Part shown: positions 2,474 to 30,699 of the stretch, one piece after another
How positions within the stretch are numbered: position 1 is the stretch's first letter
Layout of the letters: every line of letters begins with the position of its first letter
DNA from: Chloroflexota bacterium
GTDB lineage: Bacteria; Chloroflexota; Dehalococcoidia; SZUA-161; SpSt-899
Assembly: GCA_013203045.1 (NCBI GenBank)
Contig: JABMQN010000143.1
Location: 1-35,851, forward strand
DNA length: 35,851 bases
Direction of reading: 5' to 3'
Translations under genes and position numbers: made by a program
The notes under the pieces: model-generated
Seen by the model: the letters and a program-made list of their open reading frames with translations, nothing else
Database searches by the model: none
What the model was told of the DNA's origin: nothing

Positions 2474-3232
2474 ATGAGTGAATTCATCAAGAAACTGGGG
2501 CAGGTTTCGCGTGGAAATGAGCAACCGATGGGATTTGGCCTCAGGGCAAAGGTCAGGATTGCCCCGATGATGCTCATTGCTCAGTTTGGAAGCGTTGATA
2601 GAAACACTGTAAAACAAGCTATCTCTGGTGGCGCTGATGCAGTGCTTTTTGATATTGAGAAGCCGCTTAGCCAGATAGAGATGATTTCGCAAATTAGTGG
2701 CTCGATTGGAAAGGCTCCCTGGGGTGTGCGATTGGGGGCAAATACCAGTGAGGACATAGATAAACTGGCTGATGCAGGCTGCGACTATGTAGTGATGACC
2801 GCCGATGTACCGGCGCAGTTGCTTATTGAAGACAGGATGGGGAAGGTGCTGGAGACGGATATAACACTCGGTGATGGCCTCGCTGAAGCAGTCAGTCAGG
2901 TTTCTGTCGATGCGATACTTATTACTGATGGTGATAGCTTGCCCACTTTAACGATTGGCCGGTTGCTCGATTATCAACGAATATGCGCATATTCTGGAAA
3001 GTTGGCAGTGGTGAATGTTCCTCAGAACTTGACCGATCTGGATGTGTTACTGGAAGCTGGCGTGGGAGGGGTGATAGTGGATGTGGAGGTCGAAAGGGGA
3101 AGTGAAATACTTTCAGAGGCAAGGGAAAAGATACAGAGCCTTTCGGGTCACAAAAAAAGAGAGCGAGAGGAAAACCACGCTTTGCTGCCCAGAGCATCAG
3201 CTATGTTTGAGGATGATGAGGAAGGTTTCTAG
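2474..3232 (+). CDS. Hypothetical protein, TIM-barrel-like
   Basis: I do not recognise the family. The 252-aa product has alternating beta/alpha segments that look like a TIM barrel. Examples are GGADAVLFDIE near residue 53, WGVRLGAN near 83, AGCDYVVMTAD near 97 and VSVDAILITDGD near 144. Later come LAVVNVP and AGVGGVIVDVEV near 178-204. The C-terminus is charged and acidic (EDDEEGF). There is no signal peptide or membrane segment. AGGAG lies at 2456-2460, 13 nt before the ATG, which is a rather long spacing. It follows the MoxR/VWA pair at a distance of 165 bp. A role as an enzyme or as a binding barrel is possible; no catalytic motif is evident. Confidence 0.75.
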   Translation: MSEFIKKLGQVSRGNEQPMGFGLRAKVRIAPMMLIAQFGSVDRNTVKQAISGGADAVLFDIEKPLSQIEMISQISGSIGKAPWGVRLGANTSEDIDKLADAGCDYVVMTADVPAQLLIEDRMGKVLETDITLGDGLAEAVSQVSVDAILITDGDSLPTLTIGRLLDYQRICAYSGKLAVVNVPQNLTDLDVLLEAGVGGVIVDVEVERGSEILSEAREKIQSLSGHKKREREENHALLPRASAMFEDDEEGF

Positions 3233-3249
3233 GATATAGAAAACCTTCC
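3220..3249. terminator. Hairpin between convergent genes
   Basis: GGAAGGTTT (3220-3228) pairs with AAACCTTCC (3241-3249). The hairpin overlaps the stop codons of both converging genes. The U-tract is poor on either strand, so its terminator function is likely but not certain. Confidence 0.45.
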
Positions 3250-3545
3250 TATAAAACAGCAGCCAGGATGATCAGTATGGCAAAAGCCACTGCAGCAAAT
3301 ATACCGGTTCGTTTTAAGTCAGATATAACATAGCTATATGAGGAGGAACCCGTAGTGTGATCGGCGCGCTTTGTTCTAGGGCGTGCTGGCTGTGATGCCA
3401 CCATAAGAGTGCCCTCAGTGGTATCTGCCTGTGGAGATGCAGCACTGGCATTCATCGGTGTTGTTGGTTTACGAGGACGTCTCTTTTTTGGCTGTGTACC
3501 TTGTTTGGCGTATCTTCCTCCGGATTGATAGGTTTTCTTGCCCAT
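3249..3545 (-). CDS. Small basic tail-anchored membrane protein
   Basis: A 98-aa protein of unknown family. The first 40 residues are rich in Lys, Arg, Gly and Gln, followed by a Ser/Thr/Ala/Pro-rich stretch. One hydrophobic helix ends the chain (about residues 80-98, GIFAAVAFAILIILAAVL). This predicts a cytoplasmic basic domain with a C-terminal membrane anchor. The ATG at 3545 is preceded by GGGAG about 8 nt upstream, which supports translation. It diverges from the radical SAM gene at 3643 and converges on the gene at 2474. A nucleic-acid-binding role for the basic tail is possible but only a guess. Confidence 0.65.
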   Translation of the reverse strand: MGKKTYQSGGRYAKQGTQPKKRRPRKPTTPMNASAASPQADTTEGTLMVASQPARPRTKRADHTTGSSSYSYVISDLKRTGIFAAVAFAILIILAAVL

Positions 3546-3642
3546 TGATGCTCTCCCGTCTGAATCAGTATGCTATGCTTTGATTGTAGCGTCCAGTTGG
3601 GACTTTGACAAGACTGTTATGTAGAGAAATCGGAGAATATAT

Positions 3643-6223: not shown

Positions 6224-8197
6224 ATGTTGAGTATTGCAAATCTTTCCAAATCATATGGGGATCGTACACTATTTTCTAATGTTACGCTGAATGTCGGAGC
6301 GCGTGATCGAATCGCAGTGATTGGCCCCAATGGTTCGGGCAAGACCACGCTTTTTGAAATCATTGCAGGAAACATGACTGCCGATTCGGGTAGCGTGACA
6401 AAGAGAAAGGGGACGGATATCGGTTTCCTTGAACAGGAGATAAAGCCTTCATCAAAACGGGAATTACTGCAAGATGTTGCTGGCGCTTCGACAAGGATAA
6501 AAGGGATGGAGCATCGGATACAGATGTTGCAGGAGGAGTTGGCAGAAGGGGTTGACGGTGAGGTTTCGCCTAAGCTCATGCGTGAGTTGGGTGAACTTCA
6601 GCATCAGTTTGAGGCGGCTGGTGGGTACGATGCTGAGTACGAAGCGAGGGTGATTCTCTCAGGGCTGGGTTTTAAAGAATCAGATTTTGGGCGTTCCATG
6701 TCTGAGTTCAGTGGTGGGTGGCTGATGAGAGCTGCTCTGGCCAAGCTTTTGCTACTCAATCCAGACTTGCTTCTGCTGGACGAGCCCACGAACCATCTTG
6801 ATCTGGAATCATGTATTTGGTTTGAGGACTACCTCAAAACGTATCAGGGCGCAGTGCTGGTCACTTCGCATGACAGGGCCTTTTTGAACAGAGTGGTGAG
6901 CAGGGTGCTTGCCTTTGATCACGACGAAGTGATATTCCATCGCGGAAACTATGACAGTTATATCAAGACAAAGCAAAAAGACCTGGAGGTAAGGGAGGCT
7001 ACGGCGAAACGGCAGGAGCAGAAGATAAAGAAAGAGATGCGCTTTATTGAGAGCTTCCGAGCTGATAAAAGAAGAGCTGCTCAAGTGCAAAGCCGAATCA
7101 AACGCTTGGATAAAATGGAAAGAATAGAATCTACCAAGTCTACCAAAAAGATGCATCTTTCGTTTCCGGAACCGGCGCGCAGTGGTGAAGATGTAATAAC
7201 GCTGAAACACATCTTAAAATCGTATGGCACTAATGTGGTTTACCGAGGGCTCAATCTGGTTCTGAATCGGGGGGACTGTGTGGCACTGGTGGGGCCAAAT
7301 GGTGCTGGTAAAACCACACTTTTAAAGATGCTGGCTGGTGTATTATCCTTTGAAAAAGGAGAACGCAAGCTGGGGCATAACGTGGAAACTGCTTACTATG
7401 CTCAGTATCAGCTCGATCTCCTTGATCCGGAGAACACCGTCTTGACTGAATTGCGGAAAATTGCAGGGGATGAATCGGAACAGAAACTAAGGGGTATTCT
7501 GGGAGCTTTCCTCTTTGGTGGTGATGATGTAGAGAAGCGGGTATCCGTGCTATCCGGTGGGGAGAAAGCTCGCCTAGCCATTGCTAAAATGCTGGTGAGA
7601 CCTTCGAATTTCTTATTGATGGACGAACCGACCAATCATCTTGATATTCCTTCCCGAGAAGTCCTCACTGATGCGCTCGAAGCCTATGGCGGGACACTTT
7701 GCTTTGTTACCCATGATCGTACGGTAATTCAGCAAATTGCCAATAAGATCATCGAGGTAAAGGAAGGTAAACTGACAGTCTTTCCGGGTGCTTATGATAG
7801 CTATCTCTTTTGGAAAGAAGAATCGGGAAGAGATGAGTCAGCAGAAATGCCGAAGATTTCAAAAAATAAGGAGGTGTCTGCCAGGGACCAAAGCCGTCGT
7901 CGCAAACAGGCTGCGGGTGAACTAAGGAATGAATACTATAAAAAGAGTTCACCGATAAAGAAACGGATTGAGGCGGTAGAAACAGAGCTTGTTGATCTAG
8001 AGATGCAGATGACGCAAATTCAGAAAATGATGGCCGATCCTGACCATTATGAAGACAATACACGGGTGGTGGAGACCATCGAGAAACATCGTCAGTTGAA
8101 GGATACCATTGAATCCCTTACTGCTGAGTGGGAAGAACTTTTTCTGGAAGTTGAGAGCCTGCAAAAGGAATTCGAGCAGGCAAAGGATCAAATGTAG
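6224..8197 (+). CDS. ABC-F family ATP-binding protein
   Basis: A soluble twin-ATPase of the ABC-F family, whose members act on the ribosome (translation factors or antibiotic protection) instead of in transport. The first Walker A, GPNGSGKT, is at residues 34-41. A signature [10 protein letters not shown] and [12 protein letters not shown] follow. A charged linker at about 235-310 corresponds to the P-site tRNA-interaction motif. The second cassette has GPNGAGKT near 353, [10 protein letters not shown] and [12 protein letters not shown]. The C-terminus (about 545-657) is a Lys/Glu-rich coiled coil as in Uup/YdiF. There are no membrane segments. It is the first gene of a five-gene operon and its stop codon abuts the next start. 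Which ABC-F subtype it is cannot be told by eye. Its neighbours suggest a protective role. Confidence 0.92.
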
Positions 8198-16460: not shown

Positions 16461-17993
16461 CTATTGATAAATATTTAACCGGGGCAGTAACCCGGGTATC
16501 TCTTTGAATATTGTGGAGGTGGTTGCTTCATCGATGTGGTCTACGGGTTTTTCGAGAAGCGCTTGAGTTTTTTCACAGGCCAGTTTGAACACGTTATCGC
16601 CTTCACCGTCTCCGTCGAAGGGATAGGCTTCGGAAAGTTGCCCACTACGCATTACCTTACGGATATAGCTGATGAATATCTTCTGGGGTGTACCAGATAC
16701 TGTTCGGATTTGCTTTAGCACATCAGCGAGTTCCTCTTCATCAATTATTGGTTGCCTGAGGAAGAACTTGATCATTTTGAAATGAGCATCGTCCAGAACT
16801 GCTTGAGGCAGGCAGAAAACGGAATTGCAATCGAGCAGACCGTAGGTGCAGTGGAGATACTGGGGCCCGCTAAGGGTTACCAGTATATCGGAGAAAAGGC
16901 GCTCAATTGATGATTGCTGTCCCGGTATTTTCGGATCGCATACGCCGGAAGTGGAATAGTTTGGAATCTTATAGTATCGCGCGAGTTGAACACAGTCGAT
17001 ATTGTACTGGCTGGTTTCCACACAGCCGTAGGAATCGTTAAGCGTATCCATACGGGCTCTCACCGGTACGCTGCCGTAAAGCACAGGTGTTCCGGGATTG
17101 ACCAGTTGACCGAGAGTAATTCCGGCCAAAACCTCAGAGTTGATCTGGGCGATGATACCGGCCTCTTTGATGGGAGCGGTACTGCCGGCTTGCGGTGCGG
17201 AGGAAACTACCACGGGAAGGCCACGCTTGCATATCTCGATGAACGTATCGGTGGTATCTTCCACGAATTGCAACGGGCTCTTCACCAGGCAAGTGATGAA
17301 GGATATGATCGGGTTTTCTTTGAGTTGATCTTTACCCCCGGTGATGATCTCTGCCATGTTAACCACGTTATCGAGTTGGTCGAGGCTGGTGAGTCCGGCC
17401 ATAACATGTTTGGTGATGTTATTGAGCGAAGCAAAATACTTGTTGACATCCTTGTTTTCTTCAGTAATGTCTTTGTCCTGAATATTGACGGTCCTGATGT
17501 AACCATCCAACGTATCGAGGTGCTCACACACATGTGCTGATTGGCAAAGGTCGGCTACCGTTCCGCGTCGGGGGATGAACTCAGGGACTTGGATTTCCTT
17601 GCTGGAATCAGCTTTCTTTACATACGTCGGGAAATCGACATCTAACCAGATATTGGTCTCGGAGCCAGTGATGTAATAGACTCTCGACTCTTCCCCGTTC
17701 ATGATAAGCGCGTTTTCAGGATTCCTGGCACCAAGTTTGATCGTCTTCGGTGCGCTGTCAAGCGCTTTGAGTACCATCTGCTCAGGAATCTTTATGAGCC
17801 ATGCAGGATGATTGTAGTCGGGAAGTGTGGTAACTTCGGCTCCATTTTCCTGAAAGATATCAGCGGCATCTTTGTTAAAACAGATAAGGCCTGGGTCCAT
17901 CAGAATTTCCATGGAAGCCTGATGGATTCGCTCCACCTGTTCCTGAGTCATTCTTAGCAATGGTCGTTCGATTAATAGTCCTTCTCTGGCCAA
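16461..17993 (-). CDS. Non-pyrrolysine MttB-family methyltransferase (second copy)
   Basis: A 510-aa TIM-barrel methyltransferase of the trimethylamine methyltransferase (MttB) family. It transfers a methyl group from a substrate, usually a quaternary or tertiary amine, to a corrinoid protein. It is read without any internal amber codon, so like glycine-betaine enzyme MtgB it lacks pyrrolysine. Family blocks include RVYYITGSETN, VSSAPQAGSTAPIKEAG, VNPGTPVLYGSVPVRARM and NYSTSGVCDPKIPGQQSS. A longer frame opens at TTG 18017. The TTG at 17993 is preferred because AAGGAG lies exactly 7 nt upstream and the start then clears the upstream stop. The tandem MttB homologue precedes it and the corrinoid protein follows. 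The substrate is unknown. Confidence 0.9.
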   Translation of the reverse strand: MAREGLLIERPLLRMTQEQVERIHQASMEILMDPGLICFNKDAADIFQENGAEVTTLPDYNHPAWLIKIPEQMVLKALDSAPKTIKLGARNPENALIMNGEESRVYYITGSETNIWLDVDFPTYVKKADSSKEIQVPEFIPRRGTVADLCQSAHVCEHLDTLDGYIRTVNIQDKDITEENKDVNKYFASLNNITKHVMAGLTSLDQLDNVVNMAEIITGGKDQLKENPIISFITCLVKSPLQFVEDTTDTFIEICKRGLPVVVSSAPQAGSTAPIKEAGIIAQINSEVLAGITLGQLVNPGTPVLYGSVPVRARMDTLNDSYGCVETSQYNIDCVQLARYYKIPNYSTSGVCDPKIPGQQSSIERLFSDILVTLSGPQYLHCTYGLLDCNSVFCLPQAVLDDAHFKMIKFFLRQPIIDEEELADVLKQIRTVSGTPQKIFISYIRKVMRSGQLSEAYPFDGDGEGDNVFKLACEKTQALLEKPVDHIDEATTSTIFKEIPGLLPRLNIYQ

Positions 17994-18009
17994 TGTCCGT
18001 CTCCTTGCG

Positions 18010-19443
18010 CTATTCAATAATTCCCGGTATTTCGCTGACTATCTTCTGCCTCACATCATCGGGAAGCTTGTAACCCGGAGAAGCGAGAATCTCCTGTGCT
18101 CTCTTCTGAGCTCGAATTGCAGTATTAGTCTTACCTTCAGCTTGCCATACCTCATGGTGTTCCCGATCGCTGAGGGTGGGCACAAAATGCTCATGACGCA
18201 TGTGTTTCCGTGTATGTTTTTCATTAATGAAGTGACCTGCAGGCCCTACTTTTTTGATCAGGTCGAAAGCTAACGTTTCTTCGTTGACGGTTATGCCTTC
18301 AACCGCTCTCATTGCCATACCGATGATCTCGTTGTCGGTAACGTATTTCTCCAGGCTCACACTGAGAGCGAAATCCATTAGTCCGGCAGCATCGTGAATA
18401 TAATTTGCGCCAGCTAGTGCACAGAGCAAAGTTGTAAGAGCAGATTCGTAGCCGCATTGGGCATCCACTACTTTTGAATCGGACATGCCAGCCGTAGCAT
18501 AAAACGGAAGTTTGTAGAATTGGGCCATCTGTGCGCTGGCAGCATTCGACATACCCATCTCGATAGCGCCTGTCAAATATTTGAGATCACGGAGATCATT
18601 GCTCGAAGCGACAGATCCAAATATTGCTGGTGTACCCGGATTGACAAGCTGAGTCAGACAAACCTCTGCCAGCGAGTCAACGGTTTGGATGAGAACATTT
18701 CCGGCGAGAGTAATCGGCGAAGTAGAACCGCACAGCGGTTCGGCGGGCAAAGCGATGGGAATGCCGGCTTTGGCGACGGTGACAATCATATCACCGTATA
18801 CATCGTCGATTTTAAGGGGACTGATGGCGCAAAGAATGATAGAAATAATCGGCTCTTGCCGAAGCTTCTCGGGCGATCCTGCGATTGTCTCGGCCATACG
18901 GATAACATTTGTGATCCCCTTGTGAGTATAGACACCGCCCATTATGTGCTTGGAAGTGTTGTCGAGTCCGGCAAAGAACCGGTTGACATCCACAATAACC
19001 GGTTCGATATCGGTTGGATAAGTAGGAAGAAGGAAGAAGTGGATATTATCCAGTCCATCGACTAGTTTAGCGATATCCTTAAGGTCATTGAGAGTGGCTT
19101 TTCTTCTGTCACCGGTAACACCGTCGATAATGTTTAGCGCCGTTCCGCCTGTTCCGGCATATACCCGGGCGTCTCCGAGATAGAGGTTGTGTATAGGGTC
19201 GCGTCCATAGAGGGTGATATTGGATGGAGCCTTGTTGATCAGGTCCATTACCATATCGCGAGGCATCTTCACGATACGATCGTCTACACTGGCTCCAGCA
19301 TCTTTGAAATACTTAATTGCTTTTTCTGAGTTTACTTGAACGCCCACATCTTCGAATATCTTCATCGCGGTATTGTGGATCTGGGCGATGTCATCTTCAC
19401 TAAGCGGCTTATATGAGCCGCCGACGAGTCCTTTTCGTATCAT
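18010..19443 (-). CDS. Non-pyrrolysine MttB-family methyltransferase (first copy)
   Basis: A 477-aa MttB-family corrinoid methyltransferase. Recognisable family segments are VYAGTGGTALNIIDG, AEPLCGSTSPITLAGNV, VNPGTPAIFGSVASSNDLR and FYATAGMSDSKVVDAQ. There is no internal TAG. Its length is near the usual figure, about 480-500 aa. The ATG at 19443 has GGAGGTAAGG upstream. It lies between the MetH-activation-like gene (13 bp upstream) and the second MttB homologue. The two copies are divergent, so they may act on different methylated substrates or as a hetero-complex with one corrinoid protein. Demethylation of an amine in an anaerobic C1 pathway is the likely role. Confidence 0.92.
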   Translation of the reverse strand: MIRKGLVGGSYKPLSEDDIAQIHNTAMKIFEDVGVQVNSEKAIKYFKDAGASVDDRIVKMPRDMVMDLINKAPSNITLYGRDPIHNLYLGDARVYAGTGGTALNIIDGVTGDRRKATLNDLKDIAKLVDGLDNIHFFLLPTYPTDIEPVIVDVNRFFAGLDNTSKHIMGGVYTHKGITNVIRMAETIAGSPEKLRQEPIISIILCAISPLKIDDVYGDMIVTVAKAGIPIALPAEPLCGSTSPITLAGNVLIQTVDSLAEVCLTQLVNPGTPAIFGSVASSNDLRDLKYLTGAIEMGMSNAASAQMAQFYKLPFYATAGMSDSKVVDAQCGYESALTTLLCALAGANYIHDAAGLMDFALSVSLEKYVTDNEIIGMAMRAVEGITVNEETLAFDLIKKVGPAGHFINEKHTRKHMRHEHFVPTLSDREHHEVWQAEGKTNTAIRAQKRAQEILASPGYKLPDDVRQKIVSEIPGIIE

Positions 19444-30233: not shown

Positions 30234-30373
30234 GGTTCTATACCTTACTCTAAATAGTAATAGCAACAACTCAACTGGCGGATATTATAATACTCCTTGG
30301 CAAAGACTTCAAGTGGTGGGTGCATTTTGGAAAATCTTTTCAGATTACGCTCAAAACACACTTACACCACAAA

Positions 30374-30402
30374 AAGAGGGCCGCTTTTCCAGCGACCCTC
30401 TT
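30374..30402 (-). terminator. Intrinsic terminator of the structured RNA
   Basis: On the minus strand AAGAGGGTCGCT pairs with AGCGGCCCTCTT, a 12-bp stem with one U-G pair and a 5-nt loop, followed by TTTGTGG. On the plus strand the same position is an A-C mismatch, so the minus strand is the favoured direction. Confidence 0.75.
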
Positions 30403-30579
30403 ATTTCTTACTCTGAATCAGGCCCTTTTCGGGGCTTACTCCCGAATGGTCTGCCTTCCGAGGATTTTTTACCACCTTCCTACCTTAATTTATAAACCTC
30501 GTCAGGTTTTGAGGCCAATTCTACGATACATTAATCGGGCCTGATTCAGGACCCGCTTGCCCCGCCACGTGGCAGGGCG

Positions 30580-30624
30580 TTACTCATCAACTTGCCATAC
30601 TCCATACAATGCTTGAAGATTCAT
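30580..30624 (-). CDS. Possible 14-residue peptide within the structured RNA
   Basis: AGGAGG (30636-30631) lies 6 nt before an ATG that opens a 14-codon frame, MNLQALYGVWQVDE, ending in TAA. Spacing and strength of the ribosome binding site are excellent. It may be a leader peptide or a dual-function RNA, or the AGGAGG may be part of an RNA structure or target-binding site. Confidence 0.35.
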   Translation of the reverse strand: MNLQALYGVWQVDE

Positions 30625-30670
30625 CGTCCACCTCCTGGGATGTCGGCGCCGACTGTTTGCCTCTGATCCA

Positions 30671-30699
30671 ACTCTAGCATCGGGATATCAATCGGTCAA
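30671..30699 (-). promoter_or_regulatory. Promoter of the structured RNA
   Basis: On the minus strand TTGACC (30699-30694), a 17-bp spacer ending in TGC, and TAGAGT (30676-30671) form a -35 with an extended -10. The hpt promoter at 34131-34159 has the same architecture. Confidence 0.65.

Follow-up and report, generated by a model that had tools for sequence, protein, structure and literature searches.

In dual-function small RNAs, among them SgrS/SgrT and RNAIII, one molecule carries both an ORF and an RNA part. The arrest-type peptides ErmBL (PMC4935803) and TnaC are encoded by short ORFs with conserved residues near the stalling codon, and they control the adjacent downstream gene. Asp10 occupies the P-site and Lys11 the A-site when ErmBL stalls, which requires Arg7 and Val9-Lys11 (PMC4935803). 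A leader-type micropeptide is also carried on the small RNA rnTrpL of Sinorhizobium (PMC7298713), which originates from the trp attenuator before the trp genes; its peptide, peTrpL, acts in trans. raiA, ROOL, OLE, GOLLD and HEARO are structured bacterial RNAs with unclear or unusual functions.

The sequence analyzed here, referred to as the window, comprises positions 1 to 35,851 of contig JABMQN010000143.1 of a Chloroflexota bacterium (GCA_013203045.1), and the element of interest is located at 30370-30699 on the minus strand. It very probably belongs to a widespread and independent small-RNA gene of Chloroflexota, which combines a conserved micropeptide with a conserved fold and has no match in Rfam. 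How this RNA works is proposed more tentatively: it may be a dual-function small RNA with an arrest-type micropeptide, in which a ribosomal pause would be read by the RNA and the output would be in trans.

Transcription Unit in the Window

The promoter (30671-30699, minus strand) consists of TTGACC (30699-30694), a 17-nt spacer ending with the extended TGC, and TAGAGT (30676-30671). The intrinsic terminator at 30402-30374 on the same strand has a 12-bp stem with seven GC pairs, followed by a U-tract. Taken alone, both signals are near the chance level in an 800-nt scan, where two promoter-like sites were found against 1.3 by chance. In the homologues, TTGAC is present 74-83 nt upstream of the ATG in 35 of 35 copies examined, and strong terminators end 202-250 nt downstream of the ATG, again in 35/35. 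Because both are conserved throughout these copies, the promoter and the terminator reported by the sequence-only reading are taken as real. The window RNA is thus predicted to be its own transcription unit with a transcript of about 290-300 nt, and the conservation of both ends in the 35 copies suggests the stand-alone unit typical of dual-function small RNAs.

Inside the transcript, a perfect Shine-Dalgarno sequence, AGGAGGT (30630-30636, minus strand), directs a short ORF (sORF) of 14 codons at 30624-30580 on the minus strand, MNLQALYGVWQVDE-stop (ATG AAT CTT CAA GCA TTG TAT GGA GTA TGG CAA GTT GAT GAG TAA). The core of the encoded peptide is GVWQVD, near the C-terminus. Upstream of the Shine-Dalgarno sequence, a 12-nt palindrome, GTCGGCGCCGAC (30642-30653, minus strand), was read by eye. 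Its counterpart in a genome of the same family (G003, locus L007) is GTTGGCGCCAAC, and by eye the palindrome is not retained in most other relatives.

Distribution of Homologues

By DNA search, contig C186 of the genome that contains the window was found to carry another copy, in two pieces, and homologues were detected in 8 further genomes. A pattern scan was performed against a contig collection with one genome per species (84,980 species), and returned 33 matches, 32 with the sORF and one by chance. Among the 32, 31 are in records titled Dehalococcoidia or other Chloroflexota, and one is in a record titled Deltaproteobacteria. The latter (L043, JABMRW010000038.1, Deltaproteobacteria bin.571) has one canonical copy, which may reflect a binning error, misnaming or transfer.

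Three covariance models were used: R1 for the section from the Shine-Dalgarno sequence through the sORF to hairpin P1, R2 for P1-P2 alone, and R3, which was rebuilt with distant members. R1 matched 81 of 393 Dehalococcoidia genomes with 1-6 copies each (three in the window's genome) and 39 of 400 Chloroflexota genomes; R3 matched 75 of 400 Chloroflexota genomes. R3 found no copy in 145 genomes of the phylum of a Verrucomicrobium record, an unrelated phylum and the one control. The pattern match in that record (L045) is attributed to chance; it has a stop right after Met, no model match was found in its genome, and the phylum is negative as above. Forty distant matches were read by eye. Close to the stop codon, nearly all of them have [YFLW]G(V/R)(W/L/F)Q(V/I)D, with P1 immediately after the peptide, a long folded stretch and usually a terminator. 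A few weak ones deviate: the R3 matches L190 and L191 look false by eye, and L151 departs from the pattern at P1.

R2 matched 26 of 245 genomes of the class, and the matches coincide with sORF matches except for three. One of these (G015) is cut by the contig end, and the other two have a diverged sORF led by a Shine-Dalgarno sequence (GVCAYLD and GVMEVYS). These two P1-P2 copies with diverged peptides count against the arrest reading.

In favour of a mobile or viral element, 2-6 copies are found in several genomes. However, viral contigs, phages and plasmids gave no match to the element, neither a shared neighbour nor a shared boundary was seen, and in the window's order the element is near-universal and mostly single copy. 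A mobile origin is very improbable. In the sister family f2, the R1 and R2 searches combined found it in all nine genomes. No copy was found in family f16, whose small single-contig genomes are probably the cultured Dehalococcoides/Dehalogenimonas group. In G003, which belongs to the window's family and has five copies, three loci (L090, L091 and L092) are diverged paralogues with MTLQKWYGVWLE... peptides replacing GVWQVD.

No known family was recognized by the Rfam scan proposed in the sequence-only reading: with release 15, nothing reached the gathering score in the element, where the weak matches were at chance level, and 20 homologues from the phylum gave no match either. A known RNA family is rejected on these grounds, and the earlier view of a new or rarely annotated family is upheld. 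The 6S covariance model is likewise unmatched in the window, in agreement with the earlier observation that a 6S signature is absent; RF00013 also matches none of 20 relatives (G000, G001-G019), while it matches five control genomes. The idea that the element is the missing 6S RNA was rejected for its differing architecture, and the relatives' lack of 6S matches is non-discriminating. A literature search, whose coverage fell short of most subscription journals, found no mention of the peptide or the RNA.

Conservation of the Micropeptide

Codon conservation was analyzed for 112 distinct sORFs, with five sequences without a recognizable motif left out. A Shine-Dalgarno sequence with at least 5/6 bases is present in 105 of them. 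The mean entropy of the core codons is 1.36 bits at position 3, compared with 0.39 at position 1 and 0.44 at position 2. Single-base codon differences, counted pairwise and thus not independent events, are 15828 synonymous and 3300 non-synonymous against an expectation of 4528 and 14600, and the N/S of the GVWQVD core is ~0.06 of the neutral expectation. In sequence terms, GVWQVD is under strong protein-level selection with a translation-type signature. Conserved residues near the proposed stall site under such selection are a feature of arrest peptides, and the codon-level selection together with the Shine-Dalgarno sequence points to a translated ORF on the RNA, as in dual-function small RNAs.

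The remainder of the peptide is variable. The number of residues before the core ranges from 2 to 19 (7 in 82/112), and the position of GVWQVD stays put. The core is followed by one residue and the stop in 76/112 sORFs and by an immediate stop in 4/112; in 32/112, the ORF continues 5 to 25 residues past GVWQVD, into or through P1. The core Trp is replaced by R, L, F, C, M and others in ~20% of copies. Attenuation by Trp codons was rejected, as the single Trp is substituted this often. In one locus (L194, 1-200), the motif occurs twice in tandem within one sORF, LGAWQVDQAFLGVWQVD-stop.

The sequence-only reading had described a body without a long ORF and likened it to non-coding RNAs. A simply non-coding body is not supported, with AGGAGGT and the 14-codon ORF inside it and codon-level conservation across the phylum. 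A purely non-coding structured RNA with an accidental ORF would be in line with the covarying structure and the absence of an Rfam match, and codons 2-4 may also pair in Dehalococcoidia. Against it stand the excess of synonymous differences, the frequency of the Shine-Dalgarno sequence, and the fact that the ORF always accompanies the domain unless a contig end cuts it; a purely non-coding RNA is therefore very improbable. What does stand of the earlier view is the independent structured RNA, with its own promoter and terminator, covariation and no tie to a downstream gene.

RNA Fold and Covariation

The GC-rich hairpin P1, GCCCTGCC-ACGT-GGCGGGGC (30559-30578, minus strand), begins one base past the stop codon. 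The ORF and P1 are the best-conserved section of the RNA. The P2 domain is closed by a 13-bp stem between CTGAATCAGGCCC (30537-30549) and GGGCCTGATTCAG (30413-30425), both on the minus strand, and the fold and covariation support the hairpin P4, TCGGG-AGTAAGC-CCCGA (30429-30445, minus strand). The closing stem, the palindrome and the GC-rich hairpin had all been correctly placed by the sequence-only reading.

In the window copy, the stability of the body fold exceeds that of all 200 dinucleotide shuffles (z -3.4). In an alignment of 34 sequences, 89.2% of the cells of P1, P2, P4 and the terminator pair, a percentage biased upward by the derivation of the structure from the same alignment, and pairing falls to 34-52% when the partners are slid by 1-3 columns. 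Double changes, which are the stronger evidence, were found in 27 of 37 pairs (156 two-sided cells), including 11 of the 13 pairs of P2, and none of 500 shuffles equalled the real alignment on any measure. Of the tests proposed in the sequence-only reading, those of covariation and of presence in relatives are thus positive. P1 phylum-wide is 90.7% paired with 32 double-change cells, against 35-47% in slid controls. As judged from these alignments, the folded part (P1, P2, P4 and the terminator) is conserved as RNA structure.

The 5' end may also take part in pairing. The 5'-terminal GAGG (30660-30663, minus strand) pairs with CUUC of codons 3-4 by 4 bp in the window copy, and the counterpart in most relatives is 5-6 bp of the GAAGCC/GGCUUC type. 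In Dehalococcoidia, codons 2-4 pair with a GAAGCC-like hexamer at the 5' terminus; most of the 34 sequences share the register of this pairing and show matched changes, and the Shine-Dalgarno sequence is able to pair with the same codons. The per-sequence shuffle test for this pairing is weak (median p 0.12), as is the pairing in the window copy. Alternate pairing of codons 2-4 with the hexamer or the Shine-Dalgarno sequence is a possible control of initiation.

When P1 was blocked, the consensus fold showed no alternative pairing and no antiterminator. This counts against the arrest-switch model, since it leaves no visible route by which the domain would be switched.

Spacing between the Peptide Core and P1

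Counted from the first base of the Asp codon, P1 starts 9-11 nt downstream in 101 of the 111 loci where its position could be measured. This spacing is kept in 27 of 32 loci that lost the stop codon and in 15 of 18 loci with a long N-terminus. The peptide core and P1 are geometrically coupled, as far as the sequences tell. With Asp in the P-site, ribosome geometry would place P1 where the mRNA enters, at about +11, and GVWQVD is read as an arrest-type motif because of this spacing. By its residues, ErmBL is the closest precedent, and the likeness is a lead and no proof.

The main rival to the arrest model is a peptide that acts in trans by binding a protein or RNA in the manner of peTrpL, with P1-P2 merely a stabilizing 3' UTR. 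Strong selection at the codon level fits it as well, and trans-acting leader peptides are known from peTrpL (PMC7298713). A free peptide, however, needs neither the long covarying P2 domain nor the fixed distance between Asp and P1. The 32/112 ORFs that run past GVWQVD also speak against a required free C-terminus, but are still compatible with an internal motif. On balance, this explanation is rather unlikely.

Genomic Neighbourhood

Of 121 loci, 67 have their first downstream gene on the same strand and 54 (45%) on the opposite one. The 59 same-strand downstream proteins scanned match 70 Pfam families, the top one being ribulose-phosphate 3-epimerase with 7 proteins, and no family is common to the loci. 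In the window, the next gene encodes a universal stress protein and has its own promoter-like site. As the neighbours are unrelated and 45% of them face the other way, the element is regarded as a stand-alone gene.

In a cis leader or attenuator, a stalled ribosome would permit the polymerase to pass the terminator and transcribe the next gene. Similar parts are present in uORFs that sense antibiotics (PMC12121999). In one group, a pyrE-like gene nearly abuts the terminator, and derived copies lie directly before exported-protein genes. Attenuators, however, occupy a fixed place upstream of the regulated gene and form mutually exclusive terminator and antiterminator folds; here the strands are mixed, the neighbours are unrelated, and blocking P1 causes no re-pairing. 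Cis attenuation is thus not the general role, and as an explanation of the family it is unlikely. The pyrE-like phosphoribosyltransferase gene is close behind the terminator in L096, L097, L103, L124, L125 and L203, from several families of the class, and this is the only setting in which control in cis seems plausible.

The derived copies (in G311, G360 and G239) have the sORF and P1 without P2 or the terminator. Their sORFs are of the MKLNMLYGVWQVD type, and they are located in L086 (259, 3601, 7140 and 9069), L087, L088, L089 and L102. The genes directly downstream have signal-peptide-like N-termini by eye, and encode DUF6345, matrixin-like and unknown proteins. It looks like the sORF+P1 module was re-used in some lineages as a leader set before exported-protein genes. 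L086 also has two identical exported-looking ORFs of 225 aa (2926-3603 and 6465-7142), with a derived sORF+P1 copy 11 nt after each; either the stretch was duplicated recently or the repeat stems from the assembly.

Elsewhere in the window, two adjacent genes at 18010-19443 and 16461-18017, both on the minus strand, encode MttB-family methyltransferases (Pfam MTTB). Rfam PYLIS_3 matches at 18486-18387 inside the former gene. The match opens with the codon AUG instead of UAG and the ORF is open, and therefore the gene looks like a non-pyrrolysine MttB homologue.

Proposed Mechanism and Comparison with Known Systems

In the arrest model, a single ~290-nt transcript would give two products, a micropeptide ending with GVWQVD-x and a folded RNA composed of P1, the P2-closed domain and the terminator. 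The ribosome would load at the strong Shine-Dalgarno sequence, synthesize the peptide, and presumably pause, upon a likewise presumed trigger, once the conserved Asp occupies the P-site. Nascent GVWQVD in the exit tunnel would be the arrest-type sensor, similar to ErmBL and TnaC, and P1 would be positioned at the mRNA entry of the paused ribosome. Whether the ribosome stays or leaves would then set the availability of P1 and of the domain downstream of it. The RNA would be a sensor read by the ribosome, with a putative output in trans. The model is supported by the codon-level selection on GVWQVD with a variable N-terminus, the fixed spacing of P1 and the covarying fold, as well as by the promoter and terminator of its own, the unrelated neighbours, the re-use of the sORF and P1 as a leader, and the precedent of ErmBL. 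Its broadest form, a phylum-wide ribosome-sensor RNA in which GVWQVD arrest and P1 switch a separate trans-acting domain uncoupled from any downstream gene, is possible but doubtful.

The family is an RNA with a micropeptide, matches no Rfam model, and is spread over a whole phylum in which RNA biology has been little studied. ORFs of 13-24 aa fall below the usual length of gene callers, and such an ORF would be missed because it is shorter than these programs usually report. If the arrest model is true, the RNA would be a ribosome-sensing device and not the leader of a regulated gene.

Compared with the described systems, GVWQVD ends with Val-Asp, as does the stretch of ErmBL that ends at the P-site during stalling (PMC4935803). 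Unlike ErmBL and TnaC, which control an adjacent gene, the window RNA ends in its own terminator, and its stalling is a proposal. raiA, ROOL, OLE, GOLLD and HEARO are set apart by the Rfam scan, in which no covariance model matched the region at the gathering score. rnTrpL is alike in carrying a micropeptide of the leader type on a small RNA, but the window RNA is not tied to a particular downstream gene, its covarying 3' domain is larger, and its peptide is another one. SgrS/SgrT and RNAIII differ in their ORFs and base-pairing targets, whereas here the end of the ORF and the hairpin at a fixed spacing are the most conserved.
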